Shown here: positions 8,060-53,658 of the stretch, piece by piece
Position numbering within the stretch: position 1 is the first letter of the stretch
Layout: every line of letters begins with the position of its first letter
Assembly: GCF_000316665.1 (NCBI RefSeq)
Contig: NC_019678.1
Span: 3,472,001 to 3,536,000 of the forward strand
DNA: 64,000 nucleotides
Direction: 5' to 3'
From: Rivularia sp. PCC 7116
Lineage (GTDB): Bacteria > Cyanobacteriota > Cyanobacteriia > Cyanobacteriales > Nostocaceae
Position numbers and translations under genes: made by a program
The notes under the pieces: model-generated
Told to the model about the DNA's origin: nothing
Seen by the model: only the letters and a program-made list of their open reading frames with translations
The model's database searches: none

Positions 8060-8090
8060 TTAAAAGCAAAAGAGGGAGACATTCTCCCTC
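8060..8090 (-). terminator. Intrinsic terminator of the M23 peptidase gene
   Basis: On the minus strand GAGGGAG-AATGT-CTCCCTC (8072-8090) forms a 7-bp GC-rich stem with a 5-base loop, followed directly by TTTTGCTTTTAATT. It lies 42 bp after the stop codon of the peptidase gene. Confidence 0.8.
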
Positions 8091-8131
8091 AACCTTCCAA
8101 GGCAATTATCTAGATGCTAATCAATCGGAAA

Positions 8132-10165: not shown

Positions 10166-10996
10166 CCTCCTACGATCGCTAGCGCTTAACCGAGCTCGAT
10201 TTACTTATTTCAACAAAATTCAATGATTTGAATCACTCAGAATAATAGATCGAGATCACATTTACCAGAGATACTTAGGCAAGATTAACCCGGTTCTCTG
10301 TTTTAGACAAGTTAACACTGTACTAGTAAAAATCAACTTTTTGTGCTTACTTATCTATGCTGTTGACTACACCCTAATTTAGTTTTCCTTGATACAGACA
10401 TATACATTTACATCTGCTTCAAGAAAACATCAAACTTTATAAGTAAGAACAATAATAAAGCTTCATGTTCGGACCATTACTACCTTAATCGGCAGCAATT
10501 TTCAGGAATAAGCATATATCTTGCTGTAATTTTTAAGCAGCAGTTGCAACCTATCCCACCCTCCCAATCGAGACTTTACGTTGATTTTTCCCCAAAGTAC
10601 AACCGTATTTACTCGCAAGTACATTTGCGCTTCAAAAAAATCTCAGGGATTGCAACAAAGGCTCAACTGCCCTGCCATAACAAACTTTACCCAAACCAAA
10701 AGCAATTATCGGGATAATTCCAATTAACAAAAATCTATGATTCGATTTCAAGAAAACTTTAAACTATATATACAAATTTCTTATATAAGAACGTTACTGC
10801 ACTTAAGTATTTTTCACTATTAATGAAATAGACAACAAATTAAAAGTAACATGTAACACATTATTTTTATTCTATAACAGGTATTTATTCTATAAATAAT
10901 CAAGTTGGATAGATATTTTATGGTTTTCCAGAAATTATCACTTAGGTAATATAGCCAAATAAATATATATATATATTTGAAGCAGGAGAATTGCGC
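10166..10996. other. 831-bp spacer, upstream region of the M23 peptidase
   Basis: No coding potential was found on either strand. It is AT-rich, with an (AT)n run near 10960-10976. The 200 bp next to the peptidase start would be its leader. I looked for a ydaO-type c-di-AMP riboswitch, known upstream of some wall peptidases, and could not recognise its conserved blocks. Confidence 0.5.
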
Positions 10997-11458
10997 TCAA
11001 GAGAGATACCCTAAAAAACGACGAGCCTCAAACAAACTTATAGCAACACTTACAGAAAGATTTAAGCTGCGAACTTTGGCTTCTTTCATCGGAATATGAA
11101 GGGTTGCATCACATTCTGCTAAGACATCGCTTGGTAAGCCCGTGGTTTCACTGCCAAATAGAAGCCAATCGGTTGGTTGATACTCATAAGCTGTGTAATT
11201 AAAATTACCTCTAACGCTGAAACCTAATAATCTTCCTCCACGCTGTTGATGAAAGACTTTGAAGTCTTCTAGAGATTGATGATTATGCAGCTTTACGTAA
11301 GGCCAATAATCTAAGCCTGCTCGCTTTAGATAACGGTCAGTGATTTCAAAACCTAAAGGACCAACTAAGTGCAATTCGGTACCTGTAGCTGCACAAGTAC
11401 GGGCAATATTACCTGTATTTGGAGGAATTTGCGGATGGACTAAAACTATCTGTGGCAT
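10997..11458 (-). CDS. trmL: tRNA (cytidine/uridine-34-2'-O)-methyltransferase
   Basis: A SPOUT-family methyltransferase of 153 residues that 2'-O-methylates the wobble base of tRNA-Leu anticodons. The N-terminus MPQIVLVHPQIPPNTGNIAR with AATGTELHLVGPLGF is the TrmL/YibK signature. The trefoil-knot SAM site is formed by LLFGSETTGLP and by IPM...VRSLNLSVSVAISLFEARR near the C-terminus. The ATG at 11458 gives the usual TrmL N-terminus; a TTG two codons upstream is less likely. The gene stands alone between two spacers. Confidence 0.95.
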   Translation of the reverse strand: MPQIVLVHPQIPPNTGNIARTCAATGTELHLVGPLGFEITDRYLKRAGLDYWPYVKLHNHQSLEDFKVFHQQRGGRLLGFSVRGNFNYTAYEYQPTDWLLFGSETTGLPSDVLAECDATLHIPMKEAKVRSLNLSVSVAISLFEARRFLGYLS

Positions 11459-11719
11459 TGGCAATCAACTAATTGTATTCAAAAAAACAATGTATTCGTT
11501 TTTTCAAAACTATCTTGGGATAGAAGACACATATAGTTTTTTTTAATATAAATCAGTCTGTCAGAATCTATAAAAAAAATTAAACCGGCAATAGTGCTTT
11601 AAAAAAGCTTCTATGAAGGGTATTTAAAGTCAATGTTAAAAGATAGTAAATTTTTGAGGTCACAGATGTTTATGTTTCCGGCAAAATATACCATCTTTTG
11701 ATCAAAAAACAGAACGGTG

Positions 11720-12859
11720 TCAAGCTAGTAAAGTAGAACACAATTTATCTTCAAGTTCTAATTCTCTTTCTCGAATTGAATCGATGGCTTGTGAGATAAC
11801 ATTACGGCTGCTGACACCTAAGCGGTGAAGCTGTAACCATTTTTGAGCTTGATTACCTTCACGAAGAATTTTTTGTAGTGGTGAGATAAAGCATCCAAAG
11901 CCTTGCTGTTTGGCAAAGGATGCCGCTGGTTCGTAAAGTTCATTTATCCACTCCGCAGCTTTGAGTGTTCTGCCGTCAACCCAATGAATTAGATCGGCAT
12001 CTAAACTATGAGAAGCGCAATTCGCTTCGTTTTGGGCTGTAATCGCGACTAATTCTTCCGGAGAAAAACTACTTTTGACCAATGGATCGAGGTCTGGATT
12101 GTTAATTACTTGCAGCAAACGCACTTCTAACAAAGCTGTAATTGCTAGTAGTGCAATGGGGTCAGTTACTAAATCGCAAATTCGTAATTCAAGCCGATTT
12201 AAATCGTAGGGACGGCGATCGCCATTTGGTCGAACTGATGTCCATAGATGTCGCACGTTTTGCATTGTGCCTTGAGCTAGCTGTTCTTGAGTCCACCGAA
12301 TATGATGAGCGTGGCTTTCAAATAATGGGACTGATGAAGGTGTTTGTGGGAAAAGACCCCAACGAGTAGAGTGATAACCCGTTGCTTTGCCGTCTAAAAA
12401 CGGTGATGAAGCGCTTAGAGCAAGATACAAAGGAGCTTCTAAGCGAATAACGCGACATGCCCGCATTAGTACTTCGGGGTCGCTGATACCCACATTGATA
12501 TGAACGCTAGCGGTAACGACTTTAGTACCGTAAGTGTTTTCTATATACTCGTGATAGGGATTATTTGGGTTAGAGCGGAAAAATTTTTCACTTCCTCCCA
12601 GAGATAGAGTACTGCCAGGAATTAAAGTATAGTTACCTAGTTTCTGAAGATACTTTCTTAATTTCAAGCGAGGACATAACAGACCACATAAAAGTCTTTC
12701 GTAGTCGTAGAATGGAGCGGTTACATATTCAACATTGCGGCTATCCGGTTCCCGCATAAACCCATCTAATGCAGCGGTGATTTTGTCAGAGAGACCAATG
12801 ATGTCACCTTGAGGCGTACCAGTATACATCTCAATCTCAAAACCTTTCGATAGCACCAC
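11720..12859 (-). CDS. gshA: Glutamate-cysteine ligase, cyanobacterial type
   Basis: First enzyme of glutathione synthesis, joining glutamate and cysteine with ATP. The 379-residue protein matches the cyanobacterial GshA pattern: GFEIEMYTGTPQG at the N-terminus, the REPDSRNVEYVTAPF stretch, the substrate-binding PGSTLSLGG region, VTASVHINVGI, and RPYDLNRLELRICD in the C-terminal half. A GTG start is supported by an AAGGAGAG Shine-Dalgarno sequence about five bases upstream. A different ligase family (GCS2-like) occurs at 20.5 kb, so the window carries two glutamate gamma-carboxyl ligases. No operon partner is seen; gshB is absent. Confidence 0.93.
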   Translation of the reverse strand: MVLSKGFEIEMYTGTPQGDIIGLSDKITAALDGFMREPDSRNVEYVTAPFYDYERLLCGLLCPRLKLRKYLQKLGNYTLIPGSTLSLGGSEKFFRSNPNNPYHEYIENTYGTKVVTASVHINVGISDPEVLMRACRVIRLEAPLYLALSASSPFLDGKATGYHSTRWGLFPQTPSSVPLFESHAHHIRWTQEQLAQGTMQNVRHLWTSVRPNGDRRPYDLNRLELRICDLVTDPIALLAITALLEVRLLQVINNPDLDPLVKSSFSPEELVAITAQNEANCASHSLDADLIHWVDGRTLKAAEWINELYEPAASFAKQQGFGCFISPLQKILREGNQAQKWLQLHRLGVSSRNVISQAIDSIRERELELEDKLCSTLLA

Positions 12860-40520: not shown

Positions 40521-40896
40521 GGTAAAGCTGATTTCGGGCAATGTATAATTAATTATTTTAATTATTAGTAGCAAGGATGCTTCTGCCACAAAAGTTTCAG
40601 CATATTGCCTTTTTGGCTTTATAGTCGAGATCATATTTGACTATAAAATTCAAAACTATAGATTTTTCAGAATAGCAGCTTTAAATTATTTAACGAAATA
40701 ATTAATCAACCCGGTTTTTTTAAAAAACCGGGTTTTTCAATACTAAGTAACTTCGTAGGTTGCTGAAAAATACTTCATACATTGTCTTTTCCCGTTTCCC
40801 ATTCCCCATTCCCTGTTCCCTAATAAAAAAATATTTGTTTTTGCGTAAAAGTTGGACGTAGAGGAAGATACCAGAATAGAAGTTACCAAACCTATT
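40521..40896. other. Spacer with terminator upstream of the sigma-like gene
   Basis: 376 bp. It contains the AACCCGGTT hairpin at 40709-40737 and a run of 'ccattcc/cctgttcc' STRR-like heptamers at about 40785-40820. No gene. Confidence 0.5.
40709..40737. terminator. AACCCGGTTTTT hairpin
   Basis: AACCCGGTTTTTT / AAAAAACCGGGTTTTT, the same element as at 3941-3970, with A- and T-runs on both sides. It probably ends transcription from the 101-aa gene and insulates the accessory cluster. Confidence 0.7.
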
Positions 40897-41553
40897 ATGG
40901 ATAATGCTCTCAACCAACAGTTACAGCAATTAGTCGAGGAGATTAAGCAATATTCTGCTAACGACTGTAGCACCACGATCCGAGTTAGACGACGGATAGC
41001 TTTGAATAAGTTTGTTAATGCTGTTGTAAATTCTGGACGATTGTGCAAGCAAACTCAGTGGTCTGGATTGCCTAATTATGAAGATTATCATAATGAGGCA
41101 TTGCAGCTAACTTTGATGGAAATATGCAAAAAAATTGACGAATATAATCCACAATATCCTGTCATGGTATGGGTAAATAAAATTTTTCACTGGCGATTTA
41201 TTGATGTTGTTAATAAGGAACGTAGGAGAGGACTTACCAGGGTTCCGAGAGGGGAAACAATATCGCCAGTTTTGTCTTTAGATGATATCAATAAGGAAAT
41301 AAATACAGAAAATTCAATATCACAACAAGAAATTGTGAAGGAAATTATCTGCAAAGACCCAGAAAATTATCTGGTTAGTCAACATTTAAGAGGGCATTCG
41401 GAAGCGAATTTACAAGCCATTTTGATTTTACTATTAGAGGGAAAAAAGTGGAAAGAGATTTCTCAATATTTGGGTGTTCCTTTGACAACGGCTTCTAGTT
41501 TTTATCAACGTCGAATGCATAAAATTATTGACTATTTAAAGAAGTATATATAG
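40897..41553 (+). CDS. Sigma-70-like (ECF-type) protein of the CHAT cluster
   Basis: About 218 residues from the ATG at 40897. The centre (NEALQLTLMEICKKIDEYNPQ ... VMVWVNKIFHWRFIDVVNKERRRG) resembles sigma region 2. The C-terminus (ILLLEGKKWKEISQYLGVPLTTASSFYQRRMHKII) is a helix-turn-helix like region 4. Long spacing between the two and the divergent region 2 suggest a specialised family member. It is followed after 36 bp by a DUF1822 gene in the same direction, which together look like one transcript. A role as a dedicated transcription switch for the downstream genes is inferred. Confidence 0.75.
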   Translation: MDNALNQQLQQLVEEIKQYSANDCSTTIRVRRRIALNKFVNAVVNSGRLCKQTQWSGLPNYEDYHNEALQLTLMEICKKIDEYNPQYPVMVWVNKIFHWRFIDVVNKERRRGLTRVPRGETISPVLSLDDINKEINTENSISQQEIVKEIICKDPENYLVSQHLRGHSEANLQAILILLLEGKKWKEISQYLGVPLTTASSFYQRRMHKIIDYLKKYI

Positions 41554-41589
41554 AAGTAAATTAACCCGTGCCACCCAAATAGTTTTATC

Positions 41590-42522
41590 ATGAACAGTAC
41601 CACCCAAAAACTCAGCTTTACAGTGAACTTGTCTTTTGAAGCTCACTCAATAGCTCAAGAATTAGTATCGAAAATCTCGAATCAAAAAAAACGCCAACAG
41701 ATTTATTTAAATAGTTTAGCTGTTTTTGCAGTCAATCATTATTTACTGTGCATGGGGTTTGAGACTGATTACTTAGAAGGTGACAGTCGAAATCCTGTAG
41801 CCGTTCAATTAATGAATGTCGCCGATTTAATAGTGAAAGATATTGGAAAATTAGAATGTATTCCAATTTTAGCTGAAACGGAAGTTGTGGAAATTCCTCC
41901 GGAGGTTTGGGAAGATAGAGTTGGTTATATTTTTGTAGAGTTAAATGATTCTCTTAAGGAAGCCAATATATTAGGTTTTATTCCTAAAGCAAGGGATAAG
42001 GTTTTTTTAAGTAAATTAAATTCTTTGGAAGATTTTCTAGTTTATTTAACTGAATTGGAAGTCGTAGAATCTGTCCAAGCTGAAACAACATCTCATGTTA
42101 TTAGTTTTAGACAATGGTGGGATGGAGTTATTGATACTAGCTGGCAAAAAGTTGAACAATTATTAAATCCTCAACAGTTAGGTTTAGCTTATAGAAGTAA
42201 TATGAGCCTTATCACTAGAGGACAAAAAATTGATTTAGGAATGCATTTAGATCAAATTTCTGTGGCTTTGGTAATGAAAGTTATGTCGGAAAGCGACAGT
42301 GAAGAAGTTGATATTTTAACCCAAGTGTATCCTGTGGGAGAAATGGCTTTACCGGAAGGAATTAAATTAATTATCGGGGATGAAACTGGAGAAGGTTCGG
42401 AAGTTGTTTCGAGAGAAGATGATAACTGGATTCAATCGGAATTTAGTGCTGAATCTGGGGAAAGGTTTAGTATTACAGTTGCTTATGGTGATTCGGAGGT
42501 GAAGAAAGAATTTGAAGTATGA
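41590..42522 (+). CDS. DUF1822-family protein
   Basis: 310 residues, soluble, with the typical DUF1822 N-terminus (LSFTVNLSFEAHSIAQ, RQQIYLNSLAVFAVNHYLLCMGFETD, then CIPILAE and VWEDRVGYIFVEL) and a C-terminal beta-rich part (QKIDLGMHLDQISVALVMKV, VDILTQVYPVGE). DUF1822 genes in cyanobacteria often sit beside sigma-like and CHAT-domain genes, which is also the case here. The molecular function is unknown. Strong coupling to the sigma-like gene (36-bp gap) suggests it may control that factor or the CHAT protein. Confidence 0.85.
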   Translation: MNSTTQKLSFTVNLSFEAHSIAQELVSKISNQKKRQQIYLNSLAVFAVNHYLLCMGFETDYLEGDSRNPVAVQLMNVADLIVKDIGKLECIPILAETEVVEIPPEVWEDRVGYIFVELNDSLKEANILGFIPKARDKVFLSKLNSLEDFLVYLTELEVVESVQAETTSHVISFRQWWDGVIDTSWQKVEQLLNPQQLGLAYRSNMSLITRGQKIDLGMHLDQISVALVMKVMSESDSEEVDILTQVYPVGEMALPEGIKLIIGDETGEGSEVVSREDDNWIQSEFSAESGERFSITVAYGDSEVKKEFEV

Positions 42523-42988
42523 AATGGATTTTAGATTTTAACTACGGATGCGTTTATGCAGGGATTTTGGATTATAGAATGCATCTTTAATAAATTGTTA
42601 ATCTAAAATCCCTTTTTTAATATCAGCTTTTTCAAATTTAGCTATAGCCGTAATTATTACGTTGATTAAATAGTTAGAATGCTGGGTTACTCTGAGAATA
42701 CGCCGAAAAATAAATTATTCGTAATATATCGTTATTAGCATAATCTCATGGTGCGTTACGGCAATTTAAAGATTGTAATCTCGATTAAAATTACTCAAGC
42801 CGTAACACACCCTACATGGGTTTCTCCGCAGCTTTTTGTATAATAATTTATTTTTTTCTGTTACCAGATTCTTGATATAAGTACGCTACAACCAGATAAA
42901 TGTTCGATTTTTACGTTATTTTTGCGTAAAATTATGCACAAACTACCGATAACTTAATATAGCTTCCGGTATCGTTGCGGTAACAAAT
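42523..42988. other. 466-bp spacer upstream of the CHAT gene
   Basis: Contains the palindromic element at 42750-42815. No gene. Confidence 0.5.
42750..42815. repeat. Palindromic element GGTGCGTTACGGC ... GCCGTAACACACCC
   Basis: Imperfect inverted repeat about 66 bp long ending CACACCCTAC. A second copy lies at 53771-53837. Both share ends with the inner element at 27600-27666 and 53659-53727. Confidence 0.6.
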
Positions 42989-45900
42989 ATGAAAAAGTTA
43001 GTTGTACTTAAACTGGATGGTGATTTTAATCAAGGGTTTAGCGTAAGTTTAGAAATCGGTGAAGATGGTAAGCGCGCGGATGTTGAGTTAAACGACAGTC
43101 AGTTACGATTGCCTGCTATCCCCAAGCTTCCTAATATTTATCAAGAGTGGTGTAGAAGCTATCGCGGTTTAGATGGATATCGAATAAAAGTTAAAAAGGG
43201 GCATTTATCAAACGTTAAAGTTTCTTCTTTAAAGGAAGATTGTCAGACGAAAGCTGATAATATCAAGCTGATTTTTACTAACTGGTTAAAAGCTGATTCG
43301 TTTTACCGAATTAAGGAAAAATGTTTAATACATTTATCTCCTGAAGATGAAATTAGATTTATTATTCGTACTACTGAATTTCAGTTACGAAAACTTCCTT
43401 GGCATTTATGGGATTTGTTTGATAGTTATCCCGATGCTGAGATAGGTTTAAGTTCTTTTGATAGTCGTAGTTTTACTAGAAGTTATCGCAATCGGGTAAG
43501 AATTTTAATTGTTTTGGGCAATAGTGAAGGAATCAATGTTGTTGAAGATGAAAAGCTTTTAAAAGAATATTGTCAAGATGCTGAATTAGTTGTTTTAACT
43601 GAACCTTCTGTATTAGAGTTAAACGAATATATTTGGGATGAAAGAGGTTGGGATATTCTTTTCTTTTCCGGGCATAGTCAAACGGAATCGGAACAAGGAA
43701 TAATTTATCTAAATAGCGGTGAATCTTTAACAATAGCAGAATTGAAGGAAAGTTTAAAAAGAGCGGTTAGGGGTGGATTAAAGTTAGCTTTTTTTAATTC
43801 TTGCGATGGTTTGGGAATTGCTGCTGAATTGGAAAATTTGCATATCCCGCAAGTAATTGTGATGCGGGAACCCGTTCCGGATAAGTTAGCAAACCATTTT
43901 TTAAAATACTTTTTTGATGAATTTACTGGGGGAAAGTCTTTTTATAAGTCGGTTAATATTGCTCGGAGAAAGTTACAGGGATTAGAGAAAAAATATCCCT
44001 GTGCAAGTTGGTTGCCGGTGATTGTGCAGAATTTATTGGAAATACCTCCCACATGGCAAAGTTTGGGTGCGATCGCCAAGAATCCTTATTTGGGTTTGGC
44101 TGCTTTTAAGGAGGAGGATGCAGCTAATTTTTTTGGTAGAGAATTTGTCACAAGACAGTTGGTTTCGACGGTTAATGAAAAGCCGTTTTTTGCTGTTGTA
44201 GGTGCTTCGGGAAGTGGAAAATCTAGCGTGGTTTTTGCGGGTTTGATTCCGCAGTTGAAGCAGAATAAGAAACGTGATTGGTTGATTGTTGATTTTCGTC
44301 CAGGTAATAATCCTTTTAAATCTTTGGCTATTGGTTTATTACAAGGATTTTTGCATTTGGAACCTCACCCTAACCCTTTTCTTGGTAGGGAGAGGGAATT
44401 AGCAAAACCTCACTCTAGCCCTTTTCTTGGTAGGGAGAGGGAATTAGCAAAACCTCACCCTAACCCTCTCCTTGTTAAGGAGAGGGGACAGGAGTTTGAA
44501 TCTCTTTCTAATGTTTCTGTTGGTAAGGAGAGGGAAGAAGATTTGAATTCTAATCGTTTGACGGAGTTGGAATTAGAAGTTGAGTTAAGAAGTGGTAAAA
44601 ATAGTTTAGAAAATTTTGTTGAACCGTTTATTATTGGCAATCAAAAGTTACGTTTAGCGATAATTGTAGACCAATTTGAAGAACTTTTTACTTTATGTTC
44701 CGATACAGATTCTCGCCATCTTTTTATCAATAATTTACTTAATTTAACTGAAATTCCTGGCTGTCATGTAATTATCACGCTACGAGCGGATTTTTACGCG
44801 GAAGCTTTATCATATCGCCTTTTGGCTGATGCTTTGCAGGATGCTCAGGTGAATTTGGCTGCGATGGATGAGGAAGAATTGCGAGCAGCGATTGAAAAAC
44901 CAGCAGGTAATTACAGCGTCAGTTTAGAAGAAGGTTTGAGTCAACGTTTGATTGATGCTGTCTTGGAATCTCCGAGTAATTTACCTTTGTTGGAATTTAC
45001 TTTGACTCAGCTGTGGGGAAAGCAGCATGATGGTTGGTTAACTCATCAAGCTTATGAAGATATTGGTGGTGTGGAAACTGCTTTGGCTAACCATGCGGAA
45101 GCAATTTACGCTCAGTTAAGTTTAGTAGATAAAGAGAAGGTGCAGCAGATATTTGTTCAATTGGTGCAACCTTCAGAAATCAGCGCAGATATTCGCCGTT
45201 TGGCGATTCGGGAAGAAGTGGGGAATTGGGATTTGGTTTCTCGGTTAGCTGATGGGCGTTTGGTGGTAACAAATAGCAATCAAGTTACTGGAGTAGAAAC
45301 GGTTGAAATTGTTCACGAAGCGTTAATTAAAAATTGGCGACGATTGCAAAAGTGGATGTTGGAAGATAGAGATTTTAGGTATTGGCAAGAGCATTTAAGG
45401 GTTTTTATTAGACAGTGGGAAAAAAGCGATAAAGATGAGGGGGCTTTGTTGCGCGGTAAGCCGTTAATTGATGCGGAAGAATGGTTACTGCAACGCTCAA
45501 ATCAATTTAGTTCCGTTGAACAAGGTTTTATTGATTTAAGTTTAGATTTACGCAATAGAGAAACACGAGAAAAGGAAGCAGCGAGAAGAAAAGTTATTGT
45601 TTGGTTAGTTTGTGGTTTGATTGCTGCTTTAATATTAGCTGCAATTGCTGAAGATAAACGTCGAGAAAGCGAGATTAATCAAATAAATACTTTGAGTTTG
45701 ACTGCAAAAACTTTGTTAAATTCGGGGAATCAAGTTGAAGCGTTGAATTCTACTTTAGAAGCGAATAATAAACTGATTGAATTAAGAAATAATTTGGATG
45801 CCGAAACTAAAAATGGATTATTTAGCTCTCTGCTAGAAAATTTTAATTCGATTCGCGAATTTAATAGTTTAAATGCTCATGATGGTGCTGTTAATAGCGT

Positions 45901-47680
45901 TGATATTAGTGATGATGGCAAGCTTTTAGCTTCTGGTAGTGATGATAATAAGATTAAGATTTGGCGACGGGATGGGAAGATTTTGCAAACGCTGTTAGGA
46001 CATAAACAAGGCATTTTTAGTGTTATATTTAGTCCTGATGATAAATTTATGATTGCTGCGAGTTTTGACAATACGGTTAGTTTGTGGCGATATAATTCCA
46101 CGACAGGTTTATTTACAAATCGTCCTTTTGTAAGAATATCAGAACCTGATGGATTGTGGGCGATCGCCTTTAATCCAAATAATAATATTATCGCCACTGC
46201 AAGCGAAAACGGCAAAGTCAAATTTTGGACTCTCGACGGTAAATTAATTAAAACAATTCCCGCTCACGATGAAAAAATCTGGGGTCTAAATTTTAGTGCA
46301 GATGGAAAATATTTAGCTACCGCAAGCGCCGATAATACTATTAAGATATGGGATAGTCAGGGAAGGTTTTTAAAAACTTTGACAGGTCATAAAGATAAAG
46401 TTTTAAGCGTAAATTTTAGTCCCGATAGTAAATATATTGTTTCTGGAAGCGAAGATAAAACTGTTAAACTTTGGGATTTAACAGGTAAATTATTACATAC
46501 ATTTGAAGGTCATACAAATGACGTTTTAGACGTGCGTTTTAATCCAGATGGTAAATTGATTGCTTCAGCAAGTGCCGACGATACGGTTCGAGTTTGGGAT
46601 GTTGCTTTAAAAGAAGAATATCAGCAAGTTAGATATGGTAGCAAAGCAATTGAAGTTAAATTTAGTCCTGACGGTAAAACTTTTGCTACTGCGAGTGGAG
46701 ATAAAACCGTTAAGCTAAGTTACCTTAAGGGCATTTTACCAACTTTTACAGGGAATAGCGTTAGTATTAGTCCCGATAGTGAAACTGTTGCGATCGCGAA
46801 TCAAAATATAATTACTCTACAACGACGGAATGGAAATTTGATTCGTCGTTTTGATGTAGAAATAGAAGAAATTAACAAGGTAATATTTAGTCCCACGGGA
46901 AAGTATTTTGCAACGATTGATAGCGAGAATCAAATAAAAGTTTGGAATTTAAAAGGAAAGCTTTTACGAAATTGGCAGGGACATGATGTCAAAAATAATC
47001 CTATGGATTTTGATGCAATTCAAGATATTGATATTAGTCCCGATGGTAAAACAATTGCCACAATTAGCAGAGTTGATAAACAAGTTAAGCTGTGGAATTT
47101 GCAAGGGAAGTTAATTAAAAGCTGGCAATTTAATGATTATTTCGCGACGAGTATTAAATTTAGTCCCGGCGGAGAAACTTTAGCAATTGCTGAAGGTAAA
47201 AATGTAACATTGTGGAATTTAGAAGGGAACTTATTACGTACAATTACTGGTCATAAAGATAGTATTGCAGCTTTAAGTTTTAATTCTGATGGCAGAATAA
47301 TTGCCACTGCAAGTAACGATAAAACAGTTAAACTTTGGCAGCACGATACGGGTAAGCTGTTGCAAACTTTAGCTCACCAAGACAATGTTTATGCCGTTAC
47401 TTTTAGTGCTGATGATTCTTTGGTGATTTCTGGAAGTACAGATAAAAGTTTGAATTTATGGACTATGAGCGGAAAGTTACTTAATACTATCGAAGCACAT
47501 CAGGGAAAGATTAAGGAAATTGAATTTAGTCGAGATAATAATATATTTGCTTCGGTAGATATGGAAGATAACGTGATTTTGTGGAATTTGGATATTGATG
47601 AATTGCAACAGCGCGGTTGTGATTGGTTAAAGGATTATTTGAGGACGAATGTTGATTTGGATCGGAAGGTTTGCGATTGA
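42989..47680 (+). CDS. CHAT caspase-like protease - nSTAND ATPase - WD40 protein
   Basis: 1563 residues. Residues about 150-345 form a CHAT (caspase-HetF-associated with TPRs) peptidase with the catalytic pair intact: His229 in FFSGHSQ and Cys272 in FNSCDG. An nSTAND1 ATPase follows (about 370-780) with Walker A GASGSGKSS (Lys411) and Walker B IIVDQFEELF (Asp561). Its start NPYLGLAAF is typical. Residues 459-500 are three 15-residue repeats coded by an inserted DNA repeat. A hydrophobic helix (about 869-888, VIVWLVCGLIAALILAAIA) is a likely membrane anchor, followed by a coil and 14 WD40 repeats (about 962-1545, two seven-blade propellers; blades 7, 8 and 10 degenerate). The C-terminus ends GCDWLKDYL. 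A sensor-activated protease is inferred. Confidence 0.93.
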   Translation: MKKLVVLKLDGDFNQGFSVSLEIGEDGKRADVELNDSQLRLPAIPKLPNIYQEWCRSYRGLDGYRIKVKKGHLSNVKVSSLKEDCQTKADNIKLIFTNWLKADSFYRIKEKCLIHLSPEDEIRFIIRTTEFQLRKLPWHLWDLFDSYPDAEIGLSSFDSRSFTRSYRNRVRILIVLGNSEGINVVEDEKLLKEYCQDAELVVLTEPSVLELNEYIWDERGWDILFFSGHSQTESEQGIIYLNSGESLTIAELKESLKRAVRGGLKLAFFNSCDGLGIAAELENLHIPQVIVMREPVPDKLANHFLKYFFDEFTGGKSFYKSVNIARRKLQGLEKKYPCASWLPVIVQNLLEIPPTWQSLGAIAKNPYLGLAAFKEEDAANFFGREFVTRQLVSTVNEKPFFAVVGASGSGKSSVVFAGLIPQLKQNKKRDWLIVDFRPGNNPFKSLAIGLLQGFLHLEPHPNPFLGRERELAKPHSSPFLGRERELAKPHPNPLLVKERGQEFESLSNVSVGKEREEDLNSNRLTELELEVELRSGKNSLENFVEPFIIGNQKLRLAIIVDQFEELFTLCSDTDSRHLFINNLLNLTEIPGCHVIITLRADFYAEALSYRLLADALQDAQVNLAAMDEEELRAAIEKPAGNYSVSLEEGLSQRLIDAVLESPSNLPLLEFTLTQLWGKQHDGWLTHQAYEDIGGVETALANHAEAIYAQLSLVDKEKVQQIFVQLVQPSEISADIRRLAIREEVGNWDLVSRLADGRLVVTNSNQVTGVETVEIVHEALIKNWRRLQKWMLEDRDFRYWQEHLRVFIRQWEKSDKDEGALLRGKPLIDAEEWLLQRSNQFSSVEQGFIDLSLDLRNRETREKEAARRKVIVWLVCGLIAALILAAIAEDKRRESEINQINTLSLTAKTLLNSGNQVEALNSTLEANNKLIELRNNLDAETKNGLFSSLLENFNSIREFNSLNAHDGAVNSVDISDDGKLLASGSDDNKIKIWRRDGKILQTLLGHKQGIFSVIFSPDDKFMIAASFDNTVSLWRYNSTTGLFTNRPFVRISEPDGLWAIAFNPNNNIIATASENGKVKFWTLDGKLIKTIPAHDEKIWGLNFSADGKYLATASADNTIKIWDSQGRFLKTLTGHKDKVLSVNFSPDSKYIVSGSEDKTVKLWDLTGKLLHTFEGHTNDVLDVRFNPDGKLIASASADDTVRVWDVALKEEYQQVRYGSKAIEVKFSPDGKTFATASGDKTVKLSYLKGILPTFTGNSVSISPDSETVAIANQNIITLQRRNGNLIRRFDVEIEEINKVIFSPTGKYFATIDSENQIKVWNLKGKLLRNWQGHDVKNNPMDFDAIQDIDISPDGKTIATISRVDKQVKLWNLQGKLIKSWQFNDYFATSIKFSPGGETLAIAEGKNVTLWNLEGNLLRTITGHKDSIAALSFNSDGRIIATASNDKTVKLWQHDTGKLLQTLAHQDNVYAVTFSADDSLVISGSTDKSLNLWTMSGKLLNTIEAHQGKIKEIEFSRDNNIFASVDMEDNVILWNLDIDELQQRGCDWLKDYLRTNVDLDRKVCD
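44363..44535. repeat. Repeat array translated within the CHAT gene
   Basis: Three copies of 45 bp beginning 'cctcaccctaacccttttc' at 44363, 44408 and 44453, plus a fragment ('ggtaaggagaggg') at 44521. They encode PHPNPFLGRERELAK-type repeats. The third copy retains the CTCTCCTTGTTAAGGAGAG palindrome of the intergenic family at 23160 and 47686. They interrupt the ATPase domain between the Walker A and Walker B motifs. Confidence 0.85.
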
Positions 47681-47685
47681 TTGAA

Positions 47686-47899
47686 ACCTCACCCCCTTCC
47701 CCTCTCCTTGTTAAGGAGAGGGGTGATATATTCTTTCTTCTCTCTTTGTTAAGGAAAGGGGTGATATGTTCTTTCCCCTCTCTTTGTTAAGGAAAGGGGT
47801 GATATGTTCTCTTCACTCTCACCTTGATAAGAAGAAGGATGATATGTTCTCTTCCCCTCTCCTTGATAAGGAGAGGGGTGCCGCAGGCGGGGTGAGGTT
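47686..47899. repeat. Array of about five CTCTCCTTGTTAAGGAGAG palindromes
   Basis: About 40-bp spaced palindromic units joined by 'gtgatat(g/a)ttct' linkers, starting with a near-perfect copy (47699-47723) and ending with another (about 47853-47879). The fourth unit is degenerate. It separates the CHAT gene from the next TPR gene and could act as a hairpin-rich transcript end. Confidence 0.85.
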
Positions 47900-47936
47900 T
47901 AAATTACGATGAAAACGAATTAATATTTTACCAATT

Positions 47937-48791
47937 ATGAATTACAAAAAACTAATTTCCCTAACCCTAACAATTGCCACCTTAACCACAATAAATACAA
48001 TCATCCCACAAATTAAAACCCAAGCCAACCAACCGCAAAATAAACCAACAACAACTCAAACAAAAGCTAGCGATTGGTATTACCAAGGGATAATTAAAGC
48101 GAACCAAAAAGATTACCAAGGCGCGATTAATGATTTTACAAAAGCGATTCAAATGAATCCCCAATACGCAGCAGCTTATCATCAACGGGGTTTAATTTAT
48201 GCTAATTATGCTCGTGGTAAAATATTGCGTTCCGATGGTACTTTACCGGGATGCGTGAGAGTTGATGATTATAGTGTTAGCTGTGAAGTTAAAGTAACTG
48301 CGAATTGGAAACAGCAGAATCAACAACAAGCTATCAAAGATTTTAATCGAGTAATTAAAATTAGTCCTCGATATGCAGCAGCTTATCGTCAAAGGGGATT
48401 GATTCAAGAAAATCGAGGGGATAAGTTAAAGGATGTTCAGGTAGCAGCAGATATTTATCATTCTCAGGCTTTAAGGTATTTGGATCGGGAGAATTATTTA
48501 CAAGCAGCCAGACTTTTAGAAAAGGTTGATAAATTATATTTAGAAATGAATCCAGAAGCAGGAATTATAGAACGTCCTACGGGTTCTCCTGGAGCGCTTT
48601 CTGATTATAAAAAATCCCCCTATCAGTTAATGAGAGAGGGAACACAAGCTTTGGACAAAGCAGATTTGCAAACGGCTTTGAGGAAGTATAGATTGGCTGC
48701 GCGGAAATTGAAGTACGGTACTAAGAAGGATAGGAGGAAGTATAGGGATTTGCAGGGGATTATTGGAAAGCTTGAGGGGAAGAAGAGGTGA
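47937..48791 (+). CDS. Secreted TPR protein
   Basis: 284 residues. The N-terminus (MNYKKLISLTLTIATLTTIN) is a signal peptide or anchor. Two clear TPR units follow, YYQGIIKANQKDYQGAINDF...AAAYHQRG and KQQNQQQAIKDF...AAAYRQRG, with a Cys-containing insert between them (LPGCVRVDD, SVSCEVKV). The C-terminal part has one or two diverged helical repeats and a very basic end (KKDRRKYRDLQGIIGKLEGKKR). The last gene on the plus strand in the CHAT cluster, it is convergent with the protease-TPR gene. It may assemble with that protein or the CHAT protein. Confidence 0.82.
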   Translation: MNYKKLISLTLTIATLTTINTIIPQIKTQANQPQNKPTTTQTKASDWYYQGIIKANQKDYQGAINDFTKAIQMNPQYAAAYHQRGLIYANYARGKILRSDGTLPGCVRVDDYSVSCEVKVTANWKQQNQQQAIKDFNRVIKISPRYAAAYRQRGLIQENRGDKLKDVQVAADIYHSQALRYLDRENYLQAARLLEKVDKLYLEMNPEAGIIERPTGSPGALSDYKKSPYQLMREGTQALDKADLQTALRKYRLAARKLKYGTKKDRRKYRDLQGIIGKLEGKKR

Positions 48792-48842
48792 TGAGGATTA
48801 GCAATTAGGGAATTATGGGGTTTAATTCCTAGTTCCTGGGGT

Positions 48843-51323
48843 TTATTGTTGTAATTGTTGTAATAGATTTATTACTTGTTCATATCTAGTAGTATTATTT
48901 TTAGATTTATACAGTTGGGCGGCTTTTTGTAAATCTTGAATAGCTTTTTGTTTATTTCCTATTTCAATTAGAACTAATGCTCTATTTTGGTAAGCTAAAG
49001 CAAACTTGCGATCCATTTGAATAAATTTGTTGAAATTAGCCAGTGCTAAATCCCATTTCTTTTGGTAAGAGTAAATATATCCCCGCCTTAAGTAAGCTAT
49101 ATTATCCGCAAAATTAATTTGAATAAGTTTGTTGAAATCAGCAAGTGCTAAATCCCATTTTTGTTGAAAATAGTAAAAATGTCCGCGAGTAAGGTAAGCA
49201 ATACCGGATTTAGGATTAATTTGAATAGCTTTGTTATAATGAGGCAGCGCTAAATCCCATTTTTTGTTAGTATTGTTTTTATAAAGATTTCCCCAATTGA
49301 GATAAAATAATGCACGAGGACTAAGTTTAATTGCTTGTTTAATTGCTATCTCAGCTTCTTTATACTGTTTTAAATACGTTAAAACTTTTGATTTTTCGTA
49401 ATAGAGATTCGGGTTTTTAGGTTGAAGCTTAATTGCTTTGTCTATTGCTATTAATGCTTTGTCTAACTCGCCTATAGAACTATTAAATGAGCTTAAGGTT
49501 TGCCAAGCAGCAACAAAATTAGATTTTAATTTGACAGCTTGATTTAATGCAGCAATAGCTTCTCTACTTTTGCTCTGCTGTGCTAACGCTAAACTCTTAC
49601 CATAGAAAGCTAAATGAACAAAAGCTGGTTTTTGGTTAATGGCTTCATCAAAGGCTTTAACTGCTTCTTCATTACGACGCAACCGCCAAAGTTGATTTCC
49701 TCTTTCTAACCATTGGGAAGCAGAAGCATTTCCTTTAGAAACATCAACTGATAATATTGCTTTTTCGATTAACTTGTTTTTCTGTGCGTTCAGTCGTGGT
49801 GGTCGGGTATTTTCTAAGTTTGGCGGTTTTACACTTAATCGCGGAACTACCCCTAAGAAGGTACTTACAGGAATACCTAAACTATATCCTATCTGAAAAT
49901 CTCCTTCAGTTCCTTCAGTACGTCCGTGAATACCAATTACTCTTCCTTGCCAATTTAAAACCGGACCTCCACTCATTCCACCATAAGTGATGCTGGTGTA
50001 AACTAACTCATACCCTCCAGTTAAAGAACTAGCTCTTTGTAATTTACCAAAATTATAATTTTGAAAATCAGATTGTTTAGTTCTTGTCAGCCCGAAATCT
50101 TTATCAAATATTTGTCCTACTGTAAACCGCCAAGGTGAATCATTTTTTAATTTAGGATATCCCGCAGTAAATATATAATTACCTTCATTGGGATTATAAT
50201 CAGCAAGAGTCGCTATTTCATAATTCTCAGAACTCTTAAACTTAACTACCGCTAAATCAACTCCTGACTCAATTTTGATACTGCTTTTATCTGCAGCATA
50301 TTTATCGCCATCTGGTGCTAATATTTCATAAATATTACCAGGACATGGCGGTGTCCCGTTTTCACTTTCGCACAATACATGAGCCGATGTTAAAACGGTG
50401 TAAGTATTCCCTTCTTTAGCAATAATTATTCCCGAACCATTCGCTGTACTACTACTATCAATTCTTACCGTAAATTGTTTAGCTTTTTGTTCTAATTCTC
50501 CTAACCATCCTGTATATTCCGGTTCCGGTATTGCAGCACCACCTTCTGGTAAAGGTAATTTATAAGCTGTCAATAAATCACTATCAACCCATGCTAAAAC
50601 AGTTGAAATCGGAATACCCCAACTCAACTTTCTCATTTCTGTAATTTCCGCTTCACTCGGACGTTTACCATTTTGATAAACATAACCTGTATTTAAAATC
50701 GGATAAGCACTTTTACCATTGATCCCTACAAGTTCCCCCATCGAATTAAGAATTGCACCACCGCTCATTCCTTGTTCGATGTTGCTGCTATAACCAATTT
50801 CGTATCCTTCTTTTAAATTAGAAGTCTTTTTAACTTCCCCTTCACTAAATACAATATTTCCCGTCGAACCAGAAAAACCCGCAGCCAAAATATTTGTATT
50901 AATATCGGGTGTTGCTGTAGAAACTTCTGCGAAACAATAACTTTGACTGCTTTGGAATTTTAATAGGGTAATATCTGAATTTTTAAAGTTTTTTTGCGGA
51001 ATTATTTCTGCTGAATAAGTTTTACCGTCAGCAGTTTGTAATTTAATCGAATTCACACCTTGAATTACATGAGAATTGGTTAAAACTAAATAATTATTTC
51101 CTTGTTTACCGATTAGCGTTCCCGAACCACCGTTGTTATCTCCGATGATTTTTACTGTGATTTTATTAGCAAGGGTTTGTAGTTCTTTGGTTGAATATTC
51201 TTCGTTTTCTCGTTCGATTTGGCAAATTGAATTTTGGGCTATGGAAGGAGGAGCGGCTTTGATGGGGGAGGTGGGGAATTGTAATAAGAATAGAGAGGAA
51301 AGAAGGATTAAGTTGCGGTTCAT
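48843..51323 (-). CDS. Secreted protein with two trypsin-like domains and TPRs
   Basis: 826 residues with a signal peptide (about 1-24). Two S1 (trypsin-like) domains in tandem both keep the triad: His85/Asp117/Ser187 (LTNSHVI, DITLL, GMSGGA) and His315/Asp357/Ser451 (LTSAHVL, DLAVV, GMSGGP). Residues about 545-826 are at least seven TPRs (for example KAFDEAINQKPAF, KALIAIDKAIKLQPKN). Duplicated active protease domains fused to a protein-binding array suggest a periplasmic processing or scaffold protease. It lies opposite to the TPR gene and near the CHAT protease, COP23 and HtrA genes. Confidence 0.9.
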   Translation of the reverse strand: MNRNLILLSSLFLLQFPTSPIKAAPPSIAQNSICQIERENEEYSTKELQTLANKITVKIIGDNNGGSGTLIGKQGNNYLVLTNSHVIQGVNSIKLQTADGKTYSAEIIPQKNFKNSDITLLKFQSSQSYCFAEVSTATPDINTNILAAGFSGSTGNIVFSEGEVKKTSNLKEGYEIGYSSNIEQGMSGGAILNSMGELVGINGKSAYPILNTGYVYQNGKRPSEAEITEMRKLSWGIPISTVLAWVDSDLLTAYKLPLPEGGAAIPEPEYTGWLGELEQKAKQFTVRIDSSSTANGSGIIIAKEGNTYTVLTSAHVLCESENGTPPCPGNIYEILAPDGDKYAADKSSIKIESGVDLAVVKFKSSENYEIATLADYNPNEGNYIFTAGYPKLKNDSPWRFTVGQIFDKDFGLTRTKQSDFQNYNFGKLQRASSLTGGYELVYTSITYGGMSGGPVLNWQGRVIGIHGRTEGTEGDFQIGYSLGIPVSTFLGVVPRLSVKPPNLENTRPPRLNAQKNKLIEKAILSVDVSKGNASASQWLERGNQLWRLRRNEEAVKAFDEAINQKPAFVHLAFYGKSLALAQQSKSREAIAALNQAVKLKSNFVAAWQTLSSFNSSIGELDKALIAIDKAIKLQPKNPNLYYEKSKVLTYLKQYKEAEIAIKQAIKLSPRALFYLNWGNLYKNNTNKKWDLALPHYNKAIQINPKSGIAYLTRGHFYYFQQKWDLALADFNKLIQINFADNIAYLRRGYIYSYQKKWDLALANFNKFIQMDRKFALAYQNRALVLIEIGNKQKAIQDLQKAAQLYKSKNNTTRYEQVINLLQQLQQ

Positions 51324-51390
51324 TTTTTTGATAGGTGAATGGATGGCGAATGAATGGCAGGGGATTTTTTCGTTGTTGCGGAAAATGTAG

Positions 51391-51480
51391 ATCCCTCTAA
51401 ATCCCCCTTAAAAAGGGGGACTTGAAAGGCTAAATTGGGGAACTTAAGCCCCCCTTGATAAGGGGGGTTGGGGGGATCTC
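51391..51480. repeat. Dispersed repeat GATCCC...CCCCCTT / AAGGGGG...GGGGATC
   Basis: Outer inverted ends around an inner CCCCCTTAAAAAGGGGG stem and a second stem CCCCCCTTGATAAGGGGGG. A related, more degraded copy is at 55428-55505. This is a common palindromic repeat type in filamentous cyanobacteria. Confidence 0.75.
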
Positions 51481-51486
51481 ATTTCT

Positions 51487-52092
51487 CTAATCCTCAACCT
51501 CTACCAAAGGTGCTTTATCAAAAACATTCTGCATTTCAACATACAATTGCTTACCGGAATTTTGATAAAGAACTGTTGATGATTGTCCTTCAAATATCCC
51601 TAAAAGTCTTTGTAAAACTATCTTGGGATTATGACCGTGTTTAATGGTAAACAAGTGATTATCTTTAGTACAGTTTTCTCCTTGTTTGGCTGCACAAATA
51701 ACTGGATATCCGTTACGTTTTCCTGTTGATAAATAATCTAATCTACCTTCGTCATAATATTTCTGAAAGTTTTTTGTTACCGATGCACAACGTTTTTCCG
51801 GACTCCAACTTGAAAAATATTCAGATTTCCAGCCAATTAAACGTACATGCCCGTTACGTTTGGGTACCCAAGCTACTGTTGCAGGAATATTTGATTCGCT
51901 GGCTGGATCGAAGATTTCTTTACACAAGAATTTAACTGCATCCTGTTGAGAATTTTCGGCTTTTTCTTGGGTTGATGTATCTGCTAAATTACCGATTATC
52001 ATCTGACTAAATGTTGGGGAGATGTTGTTAGTAAAAACCAAAATTGTGGTTAATGTGGAGAGTCCGATATTTAGAATAAAATTGCGCTGCAT
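51487..52092 (-). CDS. COP23-domain secreted protein
   Basis: 201 residues with a signal peptide (MQRNFILNIGLSTLTTILVF). The mature part follows the COP23 pattern: FLCKEIF, PATVAWVPKRNG, LIGWKSEYFSSWSPEKRCASVTKNFQKYYDEGRLDYLSTGKRNGYPVICAA and the tail FDKAPLVEVED. COP23 was named for a circadian-oscillating cyanobacterial protein of unknown function. Conserved Cys residues suggest periplasmic disulfides. It is between the dual-protease gene and the HtrA-like gene, all on the minus strand, which suggests joint expression. Confidence 0.8.
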   Translation of the reverse strand: MQRNFILNIGLSTLTTILVFTNNISPTFSQMIIGNLADTSTQEKAENSQQDAVKFLCKEIFDPASESNIPATVAWVPKRNGHVRLIGWKSEYFSSWSPEKRCASVTKNFQKYYDEGRLDYLSTGKRNGYPVICAAKQGENCTKDNHLFTIKHGHNPKIVLQRLLGIFEGQSSTVLYQNSGKQLYVEMQNVFDKAPLVEVED

Positions 52093-52203
52093 TGATTTGA
52101 TTCCTTGATTTTTGAATTAAATAAATATTGAGAAATTAGAAGCCGCACGCAATACCCTAGAAGGGTATCGCTACATTTACGAAGCCTGCCTCCGCAGGCT
52201 ATC

Positions 52204-52258
52204 AAGCCCAGGCAGGTGGGCTTTGTATCTGTAGCCCCACTCTTCGAGGGTGAGGGCG
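52204..52258. repeat. Direct-repeat element flanking the HtrA-like gene, copy 1
   Basis: Aligns with 53858-53912 over about 52 bases in the same orientation (core 'gcaggtgggctt', then 'tgtagccccac' and 'cttcgagggt', then 'agggcg'), with several differences. The copies bracket the HtrA-like gene. Confidence 0.65.
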
Positions 52259-52294
52259 AATGTGGTTGATTACTAGACACCGAGGTAATTACCA

Positions 52295-53404
52295 TTAGGG
52301 ATTAACAACCGCTCGCAAACTATAATCACCTGCTTGTCCACCTGCGGAAGATTTCGCTTCTATTACATAAACTCCATCCGCTGGTATAGCTATAGAGATT
52401 CGAGAATTAAAATCACCGGCTCCTTTGTCGTCGTTTTGAGCTATTCGTTGATAATCTCTACCTCTAGAAGTTTCGATAGCTTGATATAAACCCAAAGCGG
52501 GATTCATGTTTTTACTTGTCATCTCAATGGTGACTTTTTGTCCTGCTTTACCTTGAAAAACATACAGGTTCAAAAAGCCATTTTCTTTTGTTAGTTTGTC
52601 ATTGATGACTTTATCGTTAAGGGAGATAGGAATAAATTCTCGCTGTTTTTGTCTTTCTAATGTGGAATCTTGAGATACATCACCTTTTCTTGCAGCAGCT
52701 ATAAATGACTTTACTTTGGATGCGGGTATTGCAAAGTTCATTCCTGTATTTAATTTTGCAGGTGAGCCAGTTATAATTCTCGTGTTTACACCGACTACTT
52801 GACCTTTGGTATTAAGTAATGGTCCCCCGGAATTACCTCCAAAAACTGCTGCGTCGTGTTGAACCTCTCCATTGCTCTTGTTGATACGAGTGATGTGTCC
52901 CTGAGTAAACGTGTCTTTAAATTCAGGATTAAGAGGTGAACCAAGCGCAAACACGCGATCGCCAACTTGAGCGCTGTTATCAGAAGCTAGTGTGAGTGTC
53001 CGTAAATTCTTTTGTCCGTGAATTTTTAACACTGCTAAATCTAATCCACCTTTAGCAAAACCAAGCACGTCAGCAGGAATTTTTCTCCCATCTGGAAATT
53101 CAACGGTAACTACACTCGGACTTCCTTCGACGACATGAGCGTTGGTAATAATCAATCCATCTTGACTAACCACAAAACCGCTTCCGTGTCCTTTTCCATC
53201 CTTTACCGTTACAACCGTCGAACTTGCCTTTTTATAAACGCTGCGAGCAATTTGTTCTGATGCGGTTTGCGCTACAGCACTGTTGGAATACCCTAATTTA
53301 TCTCTTTGAACAGATAAAACTTCTTCGATAGCTATCAAACCAATCCAGTTAAATAAAACACACAGTGTCAAACCACTAAATCGAGATAATTTACTGTTAA
53401 CCAT
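52295..53404 (-). CDS. HtrA/trypsin-like protease with C-terminal PPC domain
   Basis: 369 residues, with an N-terminal hydrophobic segment (SGLTLCVLFNWIGLIAI) as signal anchor. The S1C protease core has the triad His90 (IITNAHVVE), Asp122 (DLAVLKI) and Ser192 (GGNSGGPLL). Instead of a PDZ domain, the C-terminus (about 262-369, KVTIEMTSKNMNPALGLY ... GVYVIEAKSSAGGQAGDYSLRA) is a bacterial pre-peptidase C-terminal (PPC) domain. Thus it is HtrA-like but not a standard DegP. It is flanked by two copies of a direct repeat. As part of the protease-rich cluster it may be a partner of the COP23 and dual-protease genes. Confidence 0.92.
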   Translation of the reverse strand: MVNSKLSRFSGLTLCVLFNWIGLIAIEEVLSVQRDKLGYSNSAVAQTASEQIARSVYKKASSTVVTVKDGKGHGSGFVVSQDGLIITNAHVVEGSPSVVTVEFPDGRKIPADVLGFAKGGLDLAVLKIHGQKNLRTLTLASDNSAQVGDRVFALGSPLNPEFKDTFTQGHITRINKSNGEVQHDAAVFGGNSGGPLLNTKGQVVGVNTRIITGSPAKLNTGMNFAIPASKVKSFIAAARKGDVSQDSTLERQKQREFIPISLNDKVINDKLTKENGFLNLYVFQGKAGQKVTIEMTSKNMNPALGLYQAIETSRGRDYQRIAQNDDKGAGDFNSRISIAIPADGVYVIEAKSSAGGQAGDYSLRAVVNP

Positions 53405-53658
53405 TAGTTTATATTTGCTTAATAGACTCTATATCAGCGGTCAAGACGGAATAAAAAGCGATTTTGCACAAAGTGATTTAATTGACCGTACAATATGCAT
53501 AAATCTCAGTCAATACACTTAACGGCAATTTTTTGTGTAAACTCAAATTGCACCCCTCGAAATTAGCTTCTGATAGAATTACTGACTGAAGAGTGCTTTT
53601 TTACGCAAATTATTTAATTTTTTTGAAGTGGTTTATTCTTTTGTGAGGAATATTTCTT

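Follow-up and report, generated by a model that had tools for sequence, protein, structure and literature searches.

A candidate cyanobacterial cassette linking a CHAT protease, an ECF-like sigma factor and secreted proteases through a shared promoter-like element

We analysed a 64,000-nucleotide stretch of the Rivularia sp. PCC 7116 genome (8.73 Mb in three contigs, labelled G000 here), G000:C1:3472001-3536000, hereafter the window, in which seven neighbouring genes form a candidate cassette, retained in some filamentous cyanobacteria, that joins a CHAT protease to secreted trypsin-like proteases. The plus strand carries an extracytoplasmic function (ECF)-like sigma factor gene (218 aa, 40897-41553), a DUF1822 gene (310 aa, 41590-42522), a gene for a CHAT protease fused to an nSTAND1 ATPase, a transmembrane (TM) helix and WD40 repeats (1563 aa, 42989-47680), and a gene for a TPR protein, probably exported, that serves as a marker of the cassette (284 aa, 47937-48791). 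On the minus strand lie genes for a double trypsin-TPR protein, probably secreted (826 aa, 48843-51323), a COP23 protein (201 aa, 51487-52092) and an HtrA-type trypsin-PPC protease (369 aa, 52295-53404). Pattern matches placed a promoter-like element before the sigma gene (40843-40880, plus strand; GCGTAAAA at 40843-40850, a GATA box, and AATAGA at 40875-40880), a second one, also seen in an upstream comparison, before the CHAT gene (42924-42961, plus strand) and a third before the HtrA-PPC gene at the head of the minus-strand unit (53569-53606, minus strand). A first-pass annotation had assigned domains to these seven open reading frames and called the catalytic residues of the CHAT protein and of three trypsin-like domains intact; scans with Pfam and NCBIfam profiles found all seven frames in place and intact with the claimed domains, and the residues are present by motif. 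TM segments and signal peptides were assigned with a hydropathy scan and inspection of the N-termini, and defence systems were sought with PADLOC, in which no system-specific model matched, the matches being generic only (WD40/repeat region, Walker, trypsin fold). Five window neighbours were also scanned and held no defence gene (homoserine dehydrogenase, SLH, CAAD and RPE65 families, and one without a family).

The CHAT domain (PF12770, 1.1e-10 when the N-terminal 364 residues were scanned alone) is followed by nSTAND1 (2.9e-113), with an intact Walker A motif at residue 405, a TM helix at residues 869-887 (hydropathy scan) and WD40 repeats recognized by Pfam. The catalytic residues His229 and Cys272 were kept in 110 of 113 gathered rows, the remaining three being gapped there. 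The N-terminal part of the CHAT protein served as query against our genome collection, and the best 80 of at least 121 relatives gave 79 loci; the closest named record among the matches listed was a Rivularia metagenome-assembled genome, 87% over that part. The region before CHAT, a candidate counterpart of the EACC2 alpha+beta domain described for this class, matched no Pfam family and is conserved in the 79 relatives. Among 69 relatives without WD matches (CHAT proteins of 600 aa or longer), CHASE2 was found in 48, after CHAT; less frequent were AAA_35 (four), nSTAND1, Peripla_BP_6 and pentapeptide repeats (three each), and PBP_like_2, COP23, trypsin and GUN4 (one each). According to the hydropathy scan, 26 of 28 CHAT-STAND-WD proteins (27 distinct) have a TM segment separating STAND from WD, all 26 of them being richer in lysine and arginine on the CHAT side, and 57 of 66 non-STAND relatives have one shortly after CHAT. 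This position between the CHAT side and the variable C-terminus in most relatives suggests that the variable part is probably a sensor outside the cytoplasm. The nSTAND1 part of the gene includes four 45-nt tandem repeats (44361-44543; spacing 45, 45 and 48; 67-100% alike), and the intergenic region before the TPR gene (47681-47936) is filled with similar CTCACCC...AGGAGAGGGG repeats, as though the CHAT gene had taken up an intergenic repeat in frame.

The sigma-like protein gave weak profile matches to TIGR02937 (1.6e-7, residues 58-212) and Sigma70_r4_2 (8e-4), both under the curated cut-offs, and a PDB profile search matched the sigma2 part only of RpoE (E 0.004) and SigK (E 0.007). Its predicted fold gave nothing at E <= 0.001 in Foldseek; the ten best matches were all sigma factors, mostly ECF (E 0.014 to 0.17), and comparison with 1or7, 6kop, 4cxf and 5wuq yielded probabilities of 0.85-0.98, E values of 0.02-0.5 and low TM-scores. 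There is thus moderate evidence, from profiles and a predicted model, for an ECF-like sigma factor with sigma2 and sigma4 domains. A start at ATG 40897, as opposed to TTG 40852, fits the promoter-like element at 40843. Alignments comprised the window protein with 43 of 52 listed relatives for the sigma protein and with 50 of 58 for DUF1822. The DUF1822 protein (PF08852, 5.8e-62), which may partner the sigma factor and be a substrate of CHAT, was modelled with AF2 as a mixed alpha/beta fold (pLDDT 88.9), and the hydropathy scan found no TM segment in it. Its description as a TPR protein was rejected, since the model has no run of paired helices. Identity with Csx30 was also rejected: a profile built on DUF1822 matched no Csx30 sequence in the PDB, and the best 50 fold matches gave none. 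The Rivularia genome holds 15 DUF1822 genes, and a CHAT paralog lies near eight of the 14 outside the window, with CHASE2 (five), periplasmic-binding domains (two) or pentapeptide repeats N-terminal to CHAT (one) as partner domains.

In the protease half, motif inspection identified the His/Ser sets H85/S187 and H315/S451 in the double trypsin-TPR protein, which has two Trypsin_2 domains and TPRs, and H90/S192 in the HtrA-PPC protein (Trypsin_2, 3.4e-32; PPC match just below the cut-off); the COP23 protein matched PF14218 at 8e-39. In a survey of 40 COP23 loci (L144-L183, one per genome, the best rows of a longer match list) trypsin occurred within 2.5 kb in 35, and the locus stretch contained CHAT in two, DUF1822 in one and sigma in none, a general partnership of COP23 with a trypsin-type protease. 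The trypsin/COP23 half is a module in its own right, widespread without CHAT; this pairing is common, and the cassette is one special branch of it. The TPR protein was found at E <= 1e-30 in seven of 388 genomes of the order, always adjoining a CHAT gene (one of these, G077, is the genome of locus L028 again, same contig).

The first-pass annotation had linked the plus- and minus-strand halves from proximity alone; when other genomes were checked for their separation, the halves stayed together. The seven families occur on one contig in nine genomes (Rivularia sp. PCC 7116, G148, G149, G150, G151, G058, G111, G394 and G021), and contig ends interrupt the block in G152, G153 and G387. Trypsin was present at seven of the 79 CHAT loci, the six closest (L023-L028) and a fusion at L048; COP23 accompanied it at all of them but L027, where the contig breaks off. 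The best whole-genome HtrA-PPC match fell inside the block in five of six genomes checked; in G152 it was on a separate contig, adjoining COP23 and trypsin. Gene order varied: CHAT-TPR is inverted relative to sigma in G058 and G394, all seven genes run head to tail on a single strand in G021, from another family, and a plus-strand trypsin-TPR gene stands between DUF1822 and CHAT in G149, G150, G151 and G111. A relic of this extra gene in 42523-42988 of the window was sought by six-frame search and rejected, with one match at E 0.09. Flanks were compared for the nine genomes plus G153, ten in total, the left flank being absent in G149 and G153 and limited to a single gene in G111. Common genes were found in two same-genus pairs, Rivularia sp. 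PCC 7116 with G148 (left side only) and G058 with G394, the cross-genus comparison giving only three matches at 37-43% identity. Flanks being shared almost only within same-genus pairs, the nine genomes represent seven contexts, or eight with the contig-cut G153. On the 64-kb contig C55 of G021 (L136-L138, L212), two CHAT triads occur together with a pair of HtrA-PPC genes and several genes for trypsin and COP23; the second CHAT protein there has a periplasmic-binding domain.

In a CHAT tree of 104 rows, each with at least 280 aligned residues, the ten block rows present formed one clade (100/98). The clade sister to it comprised 14 rows, of which six adjoin sigma and DUF1822, one a sigma fragment and none a trypsin. 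The L048 protein, from Oscillatoria princeps, fell outside the clade of these 24 rows, which suggests that coupling of CHAT to COP23 and trypsin arose more than once; another CHAT-trypsin fusion, in G074, was not placed on the tree. The L048 region (8088-12463) consists of one HTH-TRADD-N-DUF1822 gene followed by a CHAT-TM-COP23-trypsin fusion, and the TRADD-like_N domain in this DUF1822 partner is in line with the TRADD-N link described in the available text of PMC8195603.

The treatment of both halves as one unit in the first-pass annotation gained support from their upstream regions, where the same promoter-like element stands in the plus-strand and in the minus-strand half. The shared sequence noticed first was the 13-mer TTTTTGCGTAAAA before sigma and before CHAT, and a comparison of upstream regions showed that HtrA-PPC, on the opposite strand, is likewise preceded by an element of fixed spacing. 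In 37 sites the common columns were TAAASTTTTGTAACA, then TTTGCGTAAAA, CGWAA about 22 nt further and then AATAGAAG, a list that is descriptive and not a test, as the sites were picked from the cassette; the geometry would fit -35, -10 and start positions. The pattern GCGTAAAA-N16-GWWM, with AATAGA downstream, had three matches in the window against 0.09 expected, one each before sigma, CHAT and HtrA-PPC, and none of 100 shuffles reached three. In the 11 block genomes covered (without G387) the element preceded both sigma and the HtrA-PPC unit in all 11 and CHAT in eight; in G149 that of the HtrA-PPC unit stands before the COP23 gene at the unit head. A stricter pattern matched 32 times genome-wide in these 11 genomes, always at cassette genes, and its reversed form not once. 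With duplicates removed, and with the count restricted to genes that encode 120 aa or more and have 300 nt or more of upstream sequence, GCGTAAAA lay within 550 nt upstream of 9/9 sigma, 10/11 HtrA-PPC, 7/11 CHAT and 3/9 DUF1822 genes, compared with 3/22 trypsin, 2/17 COP23, 0/11 TPR and 4/178 other genes of the loci; the HtrA-PPC exception is G149, with GCGTAAAA 950 nt away. At the 40 COP23 loci elsewhere the same count gave 0/50 COP23 and 0/64 trypsin genes, and at 16 further loci chosen through trypsin matches or matches to the window's own COP23 it gave 0/3 HtrA-PPC, 1/19 trypsin (L122) and 1/12 COP23 genes (L143). A small gene of 142-168 aa with its own element lies upstream of CHAT in three block genomes (L024, 6211-6717; L131, 8869-9321; L225, 1593-2021; 59-93% alike), its L024 copy having no Pfam match, and in G149 a Ser/Thr kinase-PsbP-like protein gene adjoins the cassette (L213, 3147-4733) with GCGTAAAA 44 nt upstream.

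Domains, a linkage conserved under shuffled gene order and a promoter-like element common to both halves show, on genomic grounds, that the cassette is real and linked, and make it very probable that it is co-regulated. We propose, with a probability of roughly 60%, that the locus is one co-inherited cassette in which a sensor frees a sigma factor, the sigma factor fires a shared promoter, and proteases are the output. The sensor would be anchored in the membrane by one TM helix, with CHAT and nSTAND1 in the cytosol and the WD40 repeats outside the cytoplasm, and a signal received via WD40/nSTAND1 would activate the CHAT protease. CHAT would then cut DUF1822, a candidate anti-sigma factor, a reading we favour because Csx29-Csx30 and CalpL-CalpT are precedents for proteolysis of an ECF sigma factor's partner. 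The freed sigma factor would transcribe from the GCGTAAAA/GWWA promoter and so activate its own gene together with that for DUF1822, as well as the sensor gene and the secreted HtrA-PPC/COP23/double-trypsin-TPR unit, whose minus-strand genes may form one transcription unit. Because the promoter is shared, the secreted proteases look more like an output than like members of an upstream cascade. More tentatively, and somewhat short of an even chance, the cassette might exemplify a CRISPR-independent membrane CHAT switch, with DUF1822 as a new anti-sigma family, a dedicated promoter class (GCGTAAAA/CGWAA) and deployment of secreted proteases, related triads with other sensors each running an exoprotease regulon across cyanobacteria.

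Several observations weigh against this proposal, the support for which is computational throughout. No trypsin match was found at 72 of the 79 CHAT loci, and the other DUF1822 loci of the Rivularia genome, 14 in number, are all free of trypsin-TPR, COP23 and HtrA-PPC matches. The DUF1822 model had no Foldseek match in the PDB at E <= 0.001, and the best 50 of its 1476 fold matches included neither Csx30 nor an anti-sigma factor. As for the element, the two window matches of TTTTTGCGTAAAA were equalled by 16 of 100 shuffles and are not significant alone; the TTTGCGTAAAA core alone has 27 matches in the Rivularia genome against 16 reversed, only three of them at the cassette; and four of 11 CHAT genes have no GCGTAAAA nearby, one of these having GCATAAAA. 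Seven of the 32 strict matches lie at the sigma 3' end before DUF1822 and may be coding sequence, and the Rivularia genome contributes only its sigma site to the 32. The patterns were derived from the same loci, and the Fisher p value for enrichment of the element (1.8e-14, computed before duplicate removal) does not come from independent events, because the block loci are related by descent.

Matches outside the cassette bear on the possibility that the element marks a general class read by an alternative sigma factor or regulator of exoproteins, both halves being mere targets of a third factor. In 148 genomes of the order the strict pattern had 39 matches against seven reversed. Outside the block set there were 27, in 17 genomes, of which only four stood directly before sigma-DUF1822-CHAT triads, so that another sigma factor could read the element; this too counts against the proposed cassette. 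One further match lay 922 nt before the CHAT-trypsin fusion of G074 and one had COP23 3.5 kb on, and for 21 of the 27 the 4.2 kb downstream contained no labelled cassette family. A downstream gene was scanned at 18 outside loci (including the one with COP23 at 3.5 kb; the scanned reading frame was not always the first downstream, and L249, L250, L255 and L257 were left out): six encoded proteases (three subtilases, two trypsins and one M50 just under the cut-off), three RTX-repeat proteins, and the others a lectin, ThiF, CobW, Cas1, a histidine kinase, a TPR protein and three proteins without a family. These counts, which come without a background rate, suggest a promoter class linked to exoproteins and exoproteases, as a third factor would have it. 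However, every strict match in the 11 block genomes is at the cassette, unlike a general regulon, and GCRTAAAA occurs within 300 nt of 17/42 sigma genes of the wider triad family compared with 16/629 background genes, an enrichment that fits autoregulation; we regard a third factor as unlikely. The Rivularia genome also holds an orphan HtrA-type element at G000:C1:717724-717752 (L211 9752, minus strand) with no trypsin gene behind it. Its counterpart in Rivularia MS3 (L122) is a stand-alone 1201-aa trypsin-TPR gene with an element, six neighbour genes of which match the PCC 7116 genome at 78-97%, and the orphan seems to be a promoter that outlived its gene; a pattern built on this element alone had two matches in the PCC 7116 genome against one reversed.

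About as doubtful is a proteolytic relay in which the secreted HtrA and trypsins act upstream, processing the WD40 ectodomain or a ligand and thereby activating CHAT. The exported proteases and the predicted WD40 ectodomain would be on the same side of the membrane, CHAT, COP23 and trypsin form a single chain in L048, and DegS acting on RseA offers a precedent in the available text of PMC10028731, although that layout is not directly transferable because DUF1822 has no TM segment. Membership in a regulon explains the sharing of the promoter more simply, and there is no cleavage site or substrate to point to; positive feedback would combine relay and output. We consider it similarly improbable that the locus serves counter-invader defence or cell death along the lines suggested by Kaur et al., with CHAT-nSTAND1 as executioner and the proteases as effectors. 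The triad class and nSTAND1 are discussed as conflict systems in the portion of PMC8195603 at hand, and the distribution is patchy, as the marker TPR gene illustrates; yet exported proteases would be odd executioners of cell death, and neither the five neighbours nor PADLOC pointed to defence. Least of all do we credit two independent neighbours, a standard EACC2-CHAT/sigma/DUF1822 triad lying by chance beside a common COP23-trypsin module: that such modules mostly occur without CHAT and that the other Rivularia DUF1822 loci have no protease half would agree with it, but common retention of both halves across seven to eight contexts, with rearrangement inside the block, hardly any flank sharing between genera, element counts at cassette genes on both strands against none at 114 COP23 and trypsin genes elsewhere, and the L048 fusion led us to reject chance adjacency and largely refute this reading.

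The preferred reading, a sensor-released sigma factor with proteases as output, has parallels in several known systems. Such cyanobacteria carry numerous CHAT proteins of this class, for which roles in death or defence, but no known output, have been discussed. With a concrete promoter and a defined set of targets, one CHAT branch would become a signalling pathway open to direct tests, and a role as sigma partner, itself testable, would fall to DUF1822, so far a Pfam family without assigned function. In the open-access literature we found no account of the cassette, of the element or of a triad coupled to exoproteases through a shared promoter; PMC7159879 has no occurrence of sigma factor, CHAT, COP23 or nSTAND, and the co-expression reported in the available text of PMC12691664 concerns another CHAT gene, at a MoxR/VWA locus of Nostoc. 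The common COP23-trypsin modules of cyanobacteria share with the cassette the adjoining COP23 and trypsin genes, and differ in the lack of GCGTAAAA (0/114 genes) and the rarity of CHAT (2/40 loci).

Protease-controlled sigma factors offer the closest mechanistic likeness. In Type III-E Craspase/CASP, Csx30, which inhibits CASP-sigma, is cleaved by the CHAT protease Csx29 (as described in the accessible text of PMC10028731 and PMC9729208), and here as there a CHAT protease, a third protein and an ECF sigma factor are encoded together; cleavage of the sigma inhibitor has only a proposed equivalent in our cassette, the CHAT protein is predicted to be membrane-anchored with nSTAND1-WD40, and DUF1822 has no detectable relation to Csx30. 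No gRAMP/Cas7-11 or other Cas gene was found among the seven genes and the five neighbours scanned, the rest of the genome not having been searched. If the proposal is true, the logic of CHAT cutting an anti-sigma factor, known from CRISPR, would extend to a membrane sensor. CalpL/CalpT/CalpS follows, in the consulted portion of PMC11417357, the same three-part logic of protease, anti-sigma and ECF sigma, with a Lon-type protease and a SAVED sensor in place of CHAT-nSTAND1-WD40. DegS-RseA-sigmaE, as outlined in the part of PMC10028731 at hand, likewise has an HtrA-type protease and an ECF sigma factor in one envelope-signalling pathway; no TM anti-sigma was found here, DUF1822 having no TM segment by hydropathy.

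The neighbourhoods described in silico by Kaur et al. (2021; PMC8195603, in the text available) are the nearest relatives of the cassette: in them, genes for an ECF sigma factor and DUF1822 accompany an EACC2-caspase protein whose C-terminus varies. Equating their caspase domain with CHAT is our own reading. The cassette shares with them a caspase domain and a variable C-terminus (STAND, CHASE2 and trypsin being named there), and it has both a CHAT with catalytic His/Cys and the linked ECF sigma and DUF1822 genes; its conserved part before CHAT may correspond to their constant N-terminal module. It differs in that DUF1822 is called a TPR protein in that text and is modelled here as mixed alpha/beta, that COP23 has no mention in its main text, and that its section 9 describes neither a secreted double-trypsin/HtrA-PPC unit nor a shared promoter. 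The sigma/DUF1822/CHAT triad is thus known; what appears to be new, judging from the literature searched, is its coupling to a COP23/trypsin/HtrA exoprotease module via a shared promoter-like element.

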